NCBI GenBank assembly: GCA_024421095.1
Contig: JAHQYM010000011.1
Location: 1 to 45,153 of the forward strand
Direction: 5' to 3'
Source of the DNA: Acidimicrobiia bacterium
Lineage (GTDB): Bacteria; Actinomycetota; Acidimicrobiia; Acidimicrobiales; Aldehydirespiratoraceae
Length of the DNA: 45,153 nucleotides
Under the pieces are notes generated by a model, which saw only the letters and a program-made list of their open reading frames with translations, did not search any database and was not told where the DNA came from. This document shows positions 4,091 through 45,153 of this stretch, in pieces. The stretch's first letter is position 1. Each line of letters starts with the position of its first letter. The position numbers were made by a program, and so were the translations under genes.

Positions 4091-4273
4091 CGACCCAGCA
4101 ACGAACAAACCGACGGGCTGCTGCGACGATGGCTACCCAAAGGCACCAACCTCAACTTGAACCCCATACACCTCGCGCTCATCTAAGACGCCCTCAACCA
4201 CATGCCCCGCAAACTCCACAACTGGAAACCTACACAACACGTCTACACTATGCTCTGTCGCAACCACCGATAG
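4091..4273 (+). pseudogene. IS30-family transposase C-terminal remnant
   Basis: Translation RPSNEQTDGLLRRWLPKGTNLNLNPIHLALI*DALNHMPRKLHNWKPTQHVY resembles the IS30 C-terminus (NENTNGLLRQYFPKGT...LNxRPRKxLxWxTP). In-frame TAA at 4184-4186. Confidence 0.7.
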
Positions 4274-7507: not shown

Positions 7508-7803
7508 TGAGTCATCCTCCTGTCTCGATGATCGGTCTGTGCCATCTCCCATGCTGACTCCCGTGCCGCACGAGTTCGGCGCGCACAATTATGGGGCTCC
7601 GCATCCCCCGGCGCAAATACCAAACGCGTCAGCAGACCTATCGCTTCTGGTATGAACATGACCCCGGCAGCGTGACCAGCTTTGTTGCGTCAAGGTTTTG
7701 TGTTTCCGCAACGGGGGTGCCGTGCTACAAACCACAAATATGCTGCACGCACGTTTTTCGCCTATTCTGTGAATCAGTTGACGCACCTACAGATACGTTT
7801 GGA

Positions 7804-8367
7804 TCATGAATTGCCGAGTTTGGTCATTGCGGAGTCAACACATTCAGCTTCAACGCTCGCGTCAGGTTCGGATTGAACATCTGGCCAAGAACCGACATCA
7901 AAACCCTGAGCCACTAAACAATCCAATACCAGTTGATTTCGTCGCTCCACTTCCTCGCTTGACAACGCATTTTGAAGACCGAGAGTGTTGTTGATCAACC
8001 AGAAAAGTGTTTGCTGATAATTTTCATATATTGCGTAGTTCGCTGCCGCAATTTCAGACGTTGCTCCGCCGGTAATATTGAATTGCATTCCAGCGTCTTG
8101 CCAGACGGGCGTTACGGTCACTCCCTGAGCGCTAGCACATTCAACAACCTCGCTTGCGGCTCGGTCGGCTTCACCCGGCGTAACGTAAAAATCAGCGAGT
8201 ATCTCTCGTTGCGTTGGTGATGCTGTCGGAAGCGCCTCAAGAATTTGTTGACGCATAACAGACATCATTTCCGCGCGATCGACTTGGGCTTCACCAGCAC
8301 TGCAACCAATGGCAAACAAAGCAATAAGCAACGCGGTACAGTAATGTCTAAAAGTTGAGGGGAACAT
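7804..8367 (-). CDS. Putative secreted lipoprotein
   Basis: Internal ATG at 8367 gives MFPSTFRHYCTALLIALFAIGCSAGEAQ, a signal peptide with a lipobox-like IGC. The rest of the listed 374-aa ORF runs into the tandem repeat. Confidence 0.6.
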   Translation of the reverse strand: MFPSTFRHYCTALLIALFAIGCSAGEAQVDRAEMMSVMRQQILEALPTASPTQREILADFYVTPGEADRAASEVVECASAQGVTVTPVWQDAGMQFNITGGATSEIAAANYAIYENYQQTLFWLINNTLGLQNALSSEEVERRNQLVLDCLVAQGFDVGSWPDVQSEPDASVEAECVDSAMTKLGNS

Positions 8368-8473
8368 ACTTAAGCATACATCATTAACGTTGCGCGTAAC
8401 TTCTTCATGTCCCCATCTCCTTGTATGGTTGGCGTCATCTATCTGTGCTTGTAACAGAGTGTAGTATAGGCGT

Positions 8474-9637
8474 GTGGGTTTTGCGGGCTCTTCGCGTTTG
8501 GGGGTGGTGTCGGTGGTGTGTTTGGCCGAGGGTCGAATATGGAGGTCGGCAAGGACCTTGTCAGATGAACCCTCAACCAACCCATCAGGCAAGCGCCCAA
8601 TGATCTCACGCGATGAACCCTCAATCAACCCGTCGGGTGTGTCCGCCGCCGTTTCGGTGGTTGAGGCTCCGACTATCTCGTTGGGTGAGCGTCCGACAGT
8701 CCCGTCAGACGTACCCTCAACCCGCCCATCCGGTGAGCACCCGGCTGCCTCGCCGGATAAGTCGGCAAGGACCTTGTCAGATGAACCCTCAACCAACCCA
8801 TCAGGCAAGCGCCCAACAATCTCACCCGATGAACACTCAACCCACCCGTCGGGCGAGTCCGCGACGAACTCGTCAGGTAAACCGCCGAACCGCCCATCAG
8901 ATAAGCACCCGACCGTTTTATCGGACAAGTCGGCGAGGACCTCGTCACATGGGTCGTCAACCAGCGGACCCGGTGACTCCTTGGACGTTTCGGTGAACGA
9001 GCCTTCAACCCACCCAGCAGATCAACGCCCGACCGACTCAACAGATATACCCTCAACCCGTCCAAACGAAAAGCGCTCCGCCTTTTACGCGGACGAGCAC
9101 GCAACCCACACAGCAAATCAACCCCGGGTTGCCTCATCAGATGACCCCTCAACCCACCCATCGGAGCAGCGCCCGTCTATCTCGTCGGGTCGGCCACGCC
9201 ATGCTCGAACCGGCGCAGAATCGGCGCAACCGCTTGCCGACGACGCAACCCAGTCGTCTATCCAGAATACGCCCGGGCTCGTGCATGGCGAGCAAACTCA
9301 GCGAAAGCAACAGACAAGTTCCGACACCGAACAACGACACCCCACAACCAGAACCACCCACTACCACCCGGTCGACGGCATCGACACCTCCCACCTAAAG
9401 GCCGCGCGGGTGGGTCTCCACCCACCTGTCGTCGGGTCTTCCCGAGTGGACCTTGGGGAACATCTAGCACCGACAACCAGTGGACACGCTACCTCCCACA
9501 TTTACGCGCGGGTGCAATCATTTCGATTTGTTCAGGAGTGGCGAGGTCTAGTTGCGGAAGGGTTTGTCGGCCACCGACACACCGAATTCGGTAGGGCGGG
9601 TGCTCTGTTGTCTAGGTGCGGGCGGGCCGATGTTTGA
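8474..9637 (+). CDS. Possible repeat protein (8-residue repeats, DEPSTxPS / GKRPTISP-like)
   Basis: Long open frame in register with the 24-bp repeat. Other frames are also open, so coding status is unproven. Confidence 0.25.
   Translation: MGFAGSSRLGVVSVVCLAEGRIWRSARTLSDEPSTNPSGKRPMISRDEPSINPSGVSAAVSVVEAPTISLGERPTVPSDVPSTRPSGEHPAASPDKSARTLSDEPSTNPSGKRPTISPDEHSTHPSGESATNSSGKPPNRPSDKHPTVLSDKSARTSSHGSSTSGPGDSLDVSVNEPSTHPADQRPTDSTDIPSTRPNEKRSAFYADEHATHTANQPRVASSDDPSTHPSEQRPSISSGRPRHARTGAESAQPLADDATQSSIQNTPGLVHGEQTQRKQQTSSDTEQRHPTTRTTHYHPVDGIDTSHLKAARVGLHPPVVGSSRVDLGEHLAPTTSGHATSHIYARVQSFRFVQEWRGLVAEGFVGHRHTEFGRAGALLSRCGRADV
8540..9187. repeat. 24-bp degenerate tandem repeat, 27 units in perfect register
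   Basis: Units read by eye: gatgaaccctcaaccaacccatca (8564), ggcaagcgcccaatgatctcacgc (8588), gatgaaccctcaaccaacccatca (8780), gatgacccctcaacccacccatcg (9140). 9140-8564 = 576 = 24x24, so no net indel. Confidence 0.9.
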
Positions 9638-9947
9638 CCGCTGAGGTGACGGCCACGGTTATCGGTGTGTCGGGGCCGGGTTGGCCTTCCACGATTGCTT
9701 TCCCGTCGGCGATCAGGCTGAATCCGTCGTCGGCTGCAGGCCACAACACGCAGACATCGGGGCGGTCGATCGCATTAGCGGCAGCGCTACGACCGACAAC
9801 GGCTGAGATGGTGCCGTCATCGGCCACATCGACCGCTACATGAATTACCCTAGGTCGGCCGTCGGCACCGGTGGTCAGCACGTAGGCAGCCGGCCCATGC
9901 TGTTGCGCTACACCGGCCAAGTCGCTTGGTTCAACAGCAATACTCAT
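9612..9947 (-). CDS. Pyridoxamine 5'-phosphate oxidase-like (PPOX/FMN-binding split-barrel) protein
   Basis: HGPAAYVLTTGADGRPRVIHVAVDVADDGTISAVVGRSAAANAIDRPDVCVLWP is split-barrel-like. Confidence 0.65.
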   Translation of the reverse strand: MSIAVEPSDLAGVAQQHGPAAYVLTTGADGRPRVIHVAVDVADDGTISAVVGRSAAANAIDRPDVCVLWPAADDGFSLIADGKAIVEGQPGPDTPITVAVTSAVKHRPART

Positions 9948-10082
9948 ACCCCAAGCGTAACGGCTCGACGTTCAAGCTCGCCGCTACGCCCGAGTTTTGC
10001 AGGGCGTGGCCATTCACCTGCGGTGTCGTTTTGGTGGTTTGTTGGGGTGGTGCTTGACCTGTTGCGGGTCAAACGTGGCTAT

Positions 10083-10616
10083 TCACCTGTGATGACCCTT
10101 CGGTGGCTTCGGCCGGTGCCGGTTGCGCTGTTCGGCCCGGCGTTGTTGTCGGTTCTTGCGGTGCATCTGCAGCGGCGCCGGTTCATCGAGACGCTGCATT
10201 CGCTGATCACAGCATTCGCACAGCATGCTTGAACCCGCCAAGACCTGCAGGAAGTCGCCCTCCTCGGGGAACCTGCGGTAGCGGTTGACCCACTCAGCGA
10301 CCAGCCCATCGTGGAAGTGTCTGGGGTCCACCGGCACGAGTTCGATGTCAGACAGCGCCAACACCTCAGGGTCGATCCGTCCGTCTTCCACCACCATGTT
10401 CCCCAACTTCGACACCAACTCCGCTTGAACGTCCGGCCGCATATGTATGACCAGCAGGTCGGGATGGTCCAACCCCTCGCGGAGTCCCATCGTGTACGTC
10501 CAGCCGTTCTCGCCGTGTTTTCGCACCTGGGTTATCGCAAACCGATGCACATCGATCATCAGATCGTGCATCCGCCCGACCTGCTCTTCGCCGTATCCTT
10601 CGCATCTAATACACAT
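10083..10616 (-). CDS. DUF4262 domain-containing protein
   Basis: GWTYTMGLREGLDHPDLLVIHM followed by VPVDPRHFHDGLVAEWVNRYR. Confidence 0.7.
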   Translation of the reverse strand: MCIRCEGYGEEQVGRMHDLMIDVHRFAITQVRKHGENGWTYTMGLREGLDHPDLLVIHMRPDVQAELVSKLGNMVVEDGRIDPEVLALSDIELVPVDPRHFHDGLVAEWVNRYRRFPEEGDFLQVLAGSSMLCECCDQRMQRLDEPAPLQMHRKNRQQRRAEQRNRHRPKPPKGHHR

Positions 10617-11144
10617 GCTGACACCTTATCACTGGTTTATGACATTACGCAACATTAAATATCTTAAAATATGTTTTGGTGAATGAATGCTCACCCGCAG
10701 TACTGGAGATTGCGGACCGAAACGGTTCCCGCTGGGGGTGCCTGTTATGCCGCTCGGCAGGATCTAATCGAACAGGACCGGAGCCGTGCAACTGATCGGC
10801 GGTTGCTTGGCCACGGGGGTCAGCAAGAGTCAACAGGGCCAGACTTTCCGCGCCGGTCGGCGCCGTGCTATGAAAGCTATGCGGCGGGGGTCGACAAGAG
10901 TCAACATGTGGGCCAGGCTCGCCGGCGACTGAGGCTCGGGTGGTCCCGAACAGCCGTTTCGCGCTATCGTCGGAGTATTCAGCGGTGCGCGGTTCGGTCG
11001 CAGTCGGACGACCCGCTAGCTTTTCTACGGCCTCCACTCGAACCGCCATTAGATTTCGGGGGTTGCACTTGGAGGGGTGGCGTATCCCGATGCTACACTA
11101 TGGGGGTCTGGAGATGTGGGCGGTATGCACAGTGTGCCGCTCCA

Positions 11145-43891: not shown

Positions 43892-45153
43892 TCAGGGTTG
43901 TGGTGGGGTTGGTAGGTCCAAAGCTCGCACTAGGAAGGTTGCCATTTCGGCGCGGGTTACGGAACCGTTGGGGCAGTAGCGCAACGGATCGGTGCCGCAG
44001 CCGACGGTTATGCCTGCCGCGTGGATTGCGTCGATGTTGGCGGCGTGGGTGTTTGTGGTGTCTACGTCGGTGAACCCGGCTGGTTGTACGGGTTCCAGAT
44101 CGAAGGCGCGCACCAGGAACGTTGCCATCTCCGCACGTGTTACGAGATCGTTGGGGCAGTAGCGCAACGGATCGGTGCCGCAACCGACTGTTACGCCCGC
44201 GGCGTAGAGTGCGTCGATGTTGGGGGCGTGGGTGCTTGCGGAGTCAACGTCGGTGAACCCGGCCGGTTGCGCGGGTTCCAGATCGAGGGCGCGCACTAGG
44301 AAGGTTGCCATCTCCGCCCGGGTGAGTGGGTCGTTGGGGCAGTAGCGCAACGGGTCGCTACTACAACCTTCGGTTATGTCAGCGGCGTAGAGTGCGTCGA
44401 TGTTGGGGGCGTGGGTGTTTGTGGTGTCTACGTCGGTGAACCCGGCTGGTTGCACCGCCCCGTCGTCAGTTTCAGGATCGGTGCCGGGGTCGTCGGCAGC
44501 AGTCTCGTCCGTCTCGTCGGTGCCGGTGTCGTCGGTGTCGTCAGTCCCGTCGGTGCCGTCAGTCCCGTCAGTCCCGTCGGTGTCGGGGGGCGCGGTTGTG
44601 GTTAGGGGCACAGTTGTGGTTGGGGGCACGGTTGGGGTTGGTGTGAAAGTTGGGGTGAAAGTTGGCGTGTTGCGGGTTGGTTGGAGGTTGCTGGGCGGGG
44701 ATATGAAGACGTAGGAGTTTCGGTAGGTGGGGTGACGGAACAGGTGGTCGTCGCCGTCGGCGATGCGCAGGTTGATCCTTTTTCGGTCGGTGCCGGCGTT
44801 GTCGGTTAGCGTCAAAGACAACCGGGCGAACCGGTCGCCGGCGGGGATGGTCACGGTTTTTTCTTCTATACGGAAATCGCCGGGGTTGTCTTCGTTCTGC
44901 CATTCGACCGCGGTGCTTGAACCGAGCACTTCAACAGTGATGTCAAGATCGGATTCCACGGGTCGGTTCGTCGCGATCGGTAGGGATACGATGCTGCCAC
45001 GAACCCCCGAGGTAGAGTACCCGAAAGTTTTGGTGGGCGCTACCGACCCGATCAGAACCAGGTCATTCCCCGAGTAACGGGCCACAACAGAATCAGGGAA
45101 ACGAACCACCTGAGTCCCAGTGCAATCAGGTATTGGGGCTAAAGTTCCTCCAG
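43892..45153 (-). CDS. Cell-surface protein with Thr/Pro and Thr-Asp-Gly linker and three C-terminal SLH domains; N-terminus lies outside the window
   Basis: Three copies of FTDVDxxxTHAxNIDAxxAAxxTxGCxxDPLRYCPNxxxTRAEMATFLVRAxDL. Frame stays open to the window edge (GGTLAPIPDCTGTQVVRFPDSVV...). Confidence 0.88.
   Translation of the reverse strand, partial: GGTLAPIPDCTGTQVVRFPDSVVARYSGNDLVLIGSVAPTKTFGYSTSGVRGSIVSLPIATNRPVESDLDITVEVLGSSTAVEWQNEDNPGDFRIEEKTVTIPAGDRFARLSLTLTDNAGTDRKRINLRIADGDDHLFRHPTYRNSYVFISPPSNLQPTRNTPTFTPTFTPTPTVPPTTTVPLTTTAPPDTDGTDGTDGTDGTDDTDDTGTDETDETAADDPGTDPETDDGAVQPAGFTDVDTTNTHAPNIDALYAADITEGCSSDPLRYCPNDPLTRAEMATFLVRALDLEPAQPAGFTDVDSASTHAPNIDALYAAGVTVGCGTDPLRYCPNDLVTRAEMATFLVRAFDLEPVQPAGFTDVDTTNTHAANIDAIHAAGITVGCGTDPLRYCPNGSVTRAEMATFLVRALDLPTPPQP

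Follow-up and report, generated by a model that had tools for sequence, protein, structure and literature searches.

The 24-bp tandem array carried by the window, a stretch of 45,153 nt from an Acidimicrobiia bacterium (contig JAHQYM010000011.1), is very probably the orphaned C-terminal tail of a protein of the dispersed DUF222-HNH (13E12-type) family, built of 8-residue repeats (PSTNPSGE / RPTVSSDE) and now reduced to a pseudogene fragment. The genome to which the window belongs (2.7 Mb in 231 contigs, designated below by C-numbers such as C228 and C196) was searched using the window stretch as query, and five sister genomes from the same genus (G001-G005), some of whose bins presumably come from sponges, were compared with it. 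The features of the locus are listed in Table 1.

Table 1. Features of the array locus and its immediate neighbors, in window coordinates.
Feature	Position	Strand	Evidence
Putative lipoprotein gene (MFPSTFRHYCTALLIALFAIGCSAG...), neighbor, outside the relic	7804..8367	-	G005 homolog
ISL3-type terminal inverted repeat (left end), GGCTCTTCGCGTTTGGGGGTGGTG, plus sub-terminal sequence	8486..8545	+	Genome recurrence, sharp boundary, ISArsp7 match
216-bp (9-unit) higher-order duplication, copies 8545-8646 and 8761-8862	8545..8862	+	216-bp period also in C196
24-bp / 8-residue tandem array, 26-27 units, very probably orphaned tail of a DUF222-HNH protein	8546..9187	+	Self-similarity, paralog matches
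Non-repeat C-terminal end of the tail, closing ...HPVDGIDTS like paralogs	9188..9391	+	Paralog comparison
4-bp insertion CCTCC-CACC-TAAAG, CACC duplicated; TAA stop removed	9383..9396	+	Stop conserved in ten paralogs
Remnant of family 3' flank; homology ends near 9489	9392..9489	+	Paralog comparison
Small gene, 111 aa, no Pfam match, right neighbor, outside the relic	9612..9947	-	ORF

A preliminary description of this DNA had placed a 24-bp tandem repeat in perfect phase at about 8540-9187. Measurement bore this out, since the 26-27 units (26.7) lie in strict register on the plus strand from 8546 to 9187 without any change of register. Over that span, self-identity averaged 0.511 at lags divisible by 24 and 0.261 at other lags (sd 0.040, maximum 0.342). 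Individual units share only about half of their positions, and this probably accounts for the failure of Tandem Repeats Finder to report the array. The higher-order copy of nine units that had been described was recovered as well, its two copies being 92% identical over 102 nt. An alternation of two unit flavors is present as claimed, but it is weak and local, with mean unit identities of 0.47 at lag 1, 0.50 at lag 2, and 0.58 at lag 9. The variation had also been said to concentrate at the wobble position, and this was contradicted by the data: column entropies at codon positions 1, 2, and 3 were 1.25, 1.10, and 1.24, and the window copy differed from its best paralog, C196, by 67, 50, and 56 substitutions at these positions, respectively. 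The wobble-position argument for coding was therefore discarded.

Sixty-four matches to the window stretch were found in its own genome, distributed over more than 20 contigs, the best of them reaching 78% over positions 73-1010 of 1164. In ten paralogs (C228, C196, C5, C46, C149, C168, C40, C210, C43, and C142) the tail continues the plus-strand reading frame of an HNH region that ends in YLKPP or a similar motif ahead of the array. HNH-bearing copies occur on at least 14 contigs, making this a dispersed, multi-copy family. Pfam HNH (PF01844) scored above its cut-off in the three copies tested (C228, C149, and C196), and Pfam DUF222 (PF02720) did so in one, C196. The uninterrupted 690-codon frame of C228 did not reach the DUF222 threshold, and its 690-aa product aligns with the family across the whole N-terminal part. 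When C228 was aligned with ten relatives, the DUF222-HNH part was found to be conserved and the tail optional, and the His and Cys positions of the HNH region were invariant in all 11 sequences. A Pfam scan of the window ORF detected neither DUF222 (PF02720) nor HNH (PF01844), and scans of 8474-9637 against Pfam, NCBIfam, and PHROG were without any match, while the tail of the window copy is homologous to, and in frame with, that of HNH-bearing members. Judged by these sequence comparisons, the window copy is a fragment of a DUF222-HNH member and not itself a member.

Two other identities for the family were considered and rejected. PADLOC gave only weak, HNH-level matches to defense systems (best E 0.0045), and PHROG yielded just generic HNH matches. 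In a wider scan of genome contigs, the family was found with an alignment as query; with the tailed protein as query there was no match. DUF222-HNH (13E12) genes were multi-copy in several of the actinobacteria searched. One relative, on the minus strand of G002:C17 (L096; 2688-4904), carries a long tail made of an unrelated repeat of 7-bp period (RQPATGNEQ-like), which suggests that repeat tails arose more than once in the DUF222-HNH family.

The coding strand, which had earlier been regarded as undecidable by eye, can be assigned to plus because the HNH fusions are in frame and only the plus frame is free of stops in all 12 tails. That frame contains 0 stops in 4092 codons, a count that is partly so by choice for the paralogs, whose tails were delimited as open frames, and not for the window copy; the other five frames carry 61, 246, 227, 69, and 40 stops. 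Ungapped matches between the window tail and 11 paralogs are all in frame. Furthermore, an array of the same kind in G004, which represents another species within the genus, has only the corresponding frame open, and this frame closes with HEPVDGIDTS-stop. Pairwise pN/pS by itself fails to discriminate between the frames, which are told apart by the stop counts and the in-frame matches. The weak amino-acid constraint (pN/pS about 0.65-0.9) is what would be expected of a non-coding minisatellite or structural DNA repeat, but the stop-free plus frame, the matches that all keep frame, and the in-frame fusion to a conserved HNH domain make such an origin exceedingly improbable. The proposal that the array was translated as an 8-residue repeat therefore holds true by origin, in the plus frame, as the tail of a DUF222-HNH protein.

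Both open frames previously pointed out, 8474-9637 (+) and 7804-8928 (-), do exist. Because the minus frame stays open through 14-15 units and is in frame with lipoprotein-like sequence, it could be taken to encode a lipoprotein with an N-terminal 8-residue repeat. This interpretation is almost certainly wrong. Inside this ORF, at 8367 (-), begins a signal sequence of the lipoprotein type that includes a lipobox-like cysteine, and repeats placed ahead of it would bury the signal. In addition, a homolog in G005 matches residues 9-186 of the short form, the only form used as query, with 62% identity, and the minus frames of the 12 tails hold 40-227 stops. No homolog of the lipoprotein was found in G001-G003. 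Most simply, the minus ORF is a lipoprotein gene starting near 8367 together with a chance run into the array.

The plus frame of the window, with GTG as a possible start, remains fully open for 387 codons, and inside the array it has neither a stop nor a frameshift. These properties would fit a functional, free-standing 8-residue repeat protein encoded by 8474-9637, a reading that we consider unlikely. The first 24 codons of the frame are mostly transposon-end sequence, the same tail is attached to HNH in the paralogs, and the Pfam, NCBIfam, and PHROG scans were empty. Moreover, ten paralogs end in GACACCTCC-TAA or nearly so, and the window copy has lost this shared stop because of a 4-bp insertion that duplicated CACC. 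Openness itself decides neither way on function, since simulated neutral drift of 5% left no stop in 25% of runs. The free-standing reading thus gives way to that of an orphaned tail lacking both a catalytic domain and a stop codon.

The left edge of the window copy, at 8486, is an ISL3-type inverted repeat that begins GGCTCTTCGCGTTTG and has a sharp outer boundary, with flanks that differ between copies. Its complement motif, CAAACGCGAAGAGNC, occurs 11 times in the genome, compared with 0 for the reversed control. At 8486 the inverted repeat agrees with those published for ISArsp7, an ISL3-family element with the inverted repeat GGCTCTTCGCGTTTCGTGGTGAAT and an 8-bp target duplication (PMC6305408). 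Closely similar inverted repeats flank fragments of ISL3 transposase (PF01610) in the same genome. Beside the array itself there is no transposase, such genes and fragments lying elsewhere in the genome, and past 9489 no matching right end was found within the window.

Other copies of the family retain right ends. In C5, C149, and C228 a right-end inverted repeat follows the stop at a distance of ~250-280 bp, and in C168 at a greater one, whereas the family 3' flank at the window breaks off before reaching the position of this repeat (~270 bp past the stop in C5 and C228). A single tail-to-inverted-repeat junction is common to C40, C210, C43, and C56 and is followed by four different outer flanks, an arrangement that is best explained by movement of a unit carrying that end. 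The notion that the whole gene is always bounded by inverted repeats found no support as a rule, because the 5' ends of the family copies in the window's genome are heterogeneous and the DUF222-HNH copies of G005 have no such repeats; ISL3-type ends are therefore not a general property of the family. Solo right ends with no adjacent tail were also observed (L029, C11:2616; L028, C35:4022; L033, C205, locus position 4186). These consist of ~150 bp closing in an ISL3-type inverted repeat and resemble miniature elements.

Taken as a whole, we infer that gene copies moved with ISL3-type ends, that an internal deletion may have joined a transposon end to the tail to produce the window copy, and that this copy would now be a decaying pseudogene fragment. 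At the window site, no right-end inverted repeat, target duplication, or empty site was found in this fragmented assembly of 231 contigs. A second tail relic is present on C148 of the same genome (L022, G000; about 1953-2520); it has no catalytic part, contains stops in its tail, and adjoins an ISL3-type inverted repeat.

On either side of the array, the synteny with G005 breaks down. The counterparts of the left neighbor (~471 kb), the lipoprotein gene (~359 kb), and the right neighbor (~937 kb) lie at three distant places on G005 C1, so that window positions 7600-10700 unite three places far apart in G005, which puts the relic at, or close to, a point of rearrangement. In fragmented assemblies such as this one repeats can be misjoined, and the broken synteny, together with the location of most other copies at contig ends, could point to a chimeric join of a repeat copy and unrelated flanks. 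We regard such an artifact as very improbable, however, because the window copy is distinct from all others (identity no higher than 88% over its best long stretch) and because its left junction is a transposon end, a boundary that is biologically expected. The G005 counterpart of the right neighbor has a DUF222-HNH gene nearby. Elsewhere in the window, at 43892-45109 on the minus strand, a 405-aa ORF matches an S-layer homology (SLH) domain and contains internal 183-bp repeats (2.9 copies).

Among the paralogs, summed pN/pS was 0.13 for the catalytic part and 0.65 for the tail. By these ratios, the catalytic part is under strong purifying selection, and the tails evolve fast and under weak constraint at the amino-acid level. 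The top self-similarity lag was 216 bp in the window, C196, and C149, 192 bp in C210, and 168 bp in C40, and C43 showed both 192 and 384 bp; all self-similarity periods and match offsets are multiples of 24 bp. The tail is composed of 17% Ser, 16% Pro, and 11% Thr, and an AlphaFold model, low in overall confidence (mean pLDDT 45), showed no secondary structure in this region. The tail is probably a disordered or floppy, Ser/Pro/Thr-rich segment, and in intact copies it would most likely be a dispensable, flexible appendage on the nuclease. Growth and shrinkage may occur by unequal recombination or slippage involving whole units and blocks of 7 to 9 units. The arrays vary among copies by entire 24-bp units and by larger blocks, which explains why the frame persists while residues drift. 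A more speculative and rather doubtful suggestion is that the 24-bp arrays form a diversification module, in which recombination between the arrays of paralogs would keep creating tails of new length and sequence and so change the partners or targets of the nuclease, with orphan arrays such as this one serving as donors.

Some coding minisatellites encode disordered, Ser/Pro/Thr-rich protein tails. The arrays described here are like them in having a period that is a multiple of 3, as a result of which whole units can be gained or lost without loss of frame, and in their higher-order blocks and low amino-acid constraint. They differ in that the tail extends an HNH protein from a dispersed family and in that no surface-anchoring signal was noticed. 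With the ISL3 family, as represented by ISArsp7, the likeness lies in the inverted repeat, found at 8486 and bordering several copies on their outer side; at the window site, in contrast, no adjacent transposase, second inverted repeat, or target duplication was found. The REP13E12 loci of M. tuberculosis are gene-conversion hot spots and have been described as without a defined function (PMC13061034). REP13E12 / 13E12 genes (PF02720 + PF01844) of Mycobacterium tuberculosis and other actinobacteria resemble the present family in being dispersed, multi-copy HNH genes, with DUF222 detected here in one copy tested. What sets the proteins described here apart is a long C-terminal tail made of 24-bp / 8-aa repeats; in addition, ISL3-type inverted repeats adjoin many copies, and the window copy consists of the tail only. 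Among the titles and abstracts listed in searches of the open-access literature, none described such repeat tails.

For annotation, the consequence is a correction: what looks like a repeat-protein ORF of 387 codons is most plausibly a gene fragment. It derives from a gene of a known kind that bears a variant tail, and it matters mainly for the family rather than for the window copy. Tails that evolve fast while preserving frame, combined with ISL3-type ends, provide a handle on the spread, recombination, and decay of the 13E12 family.
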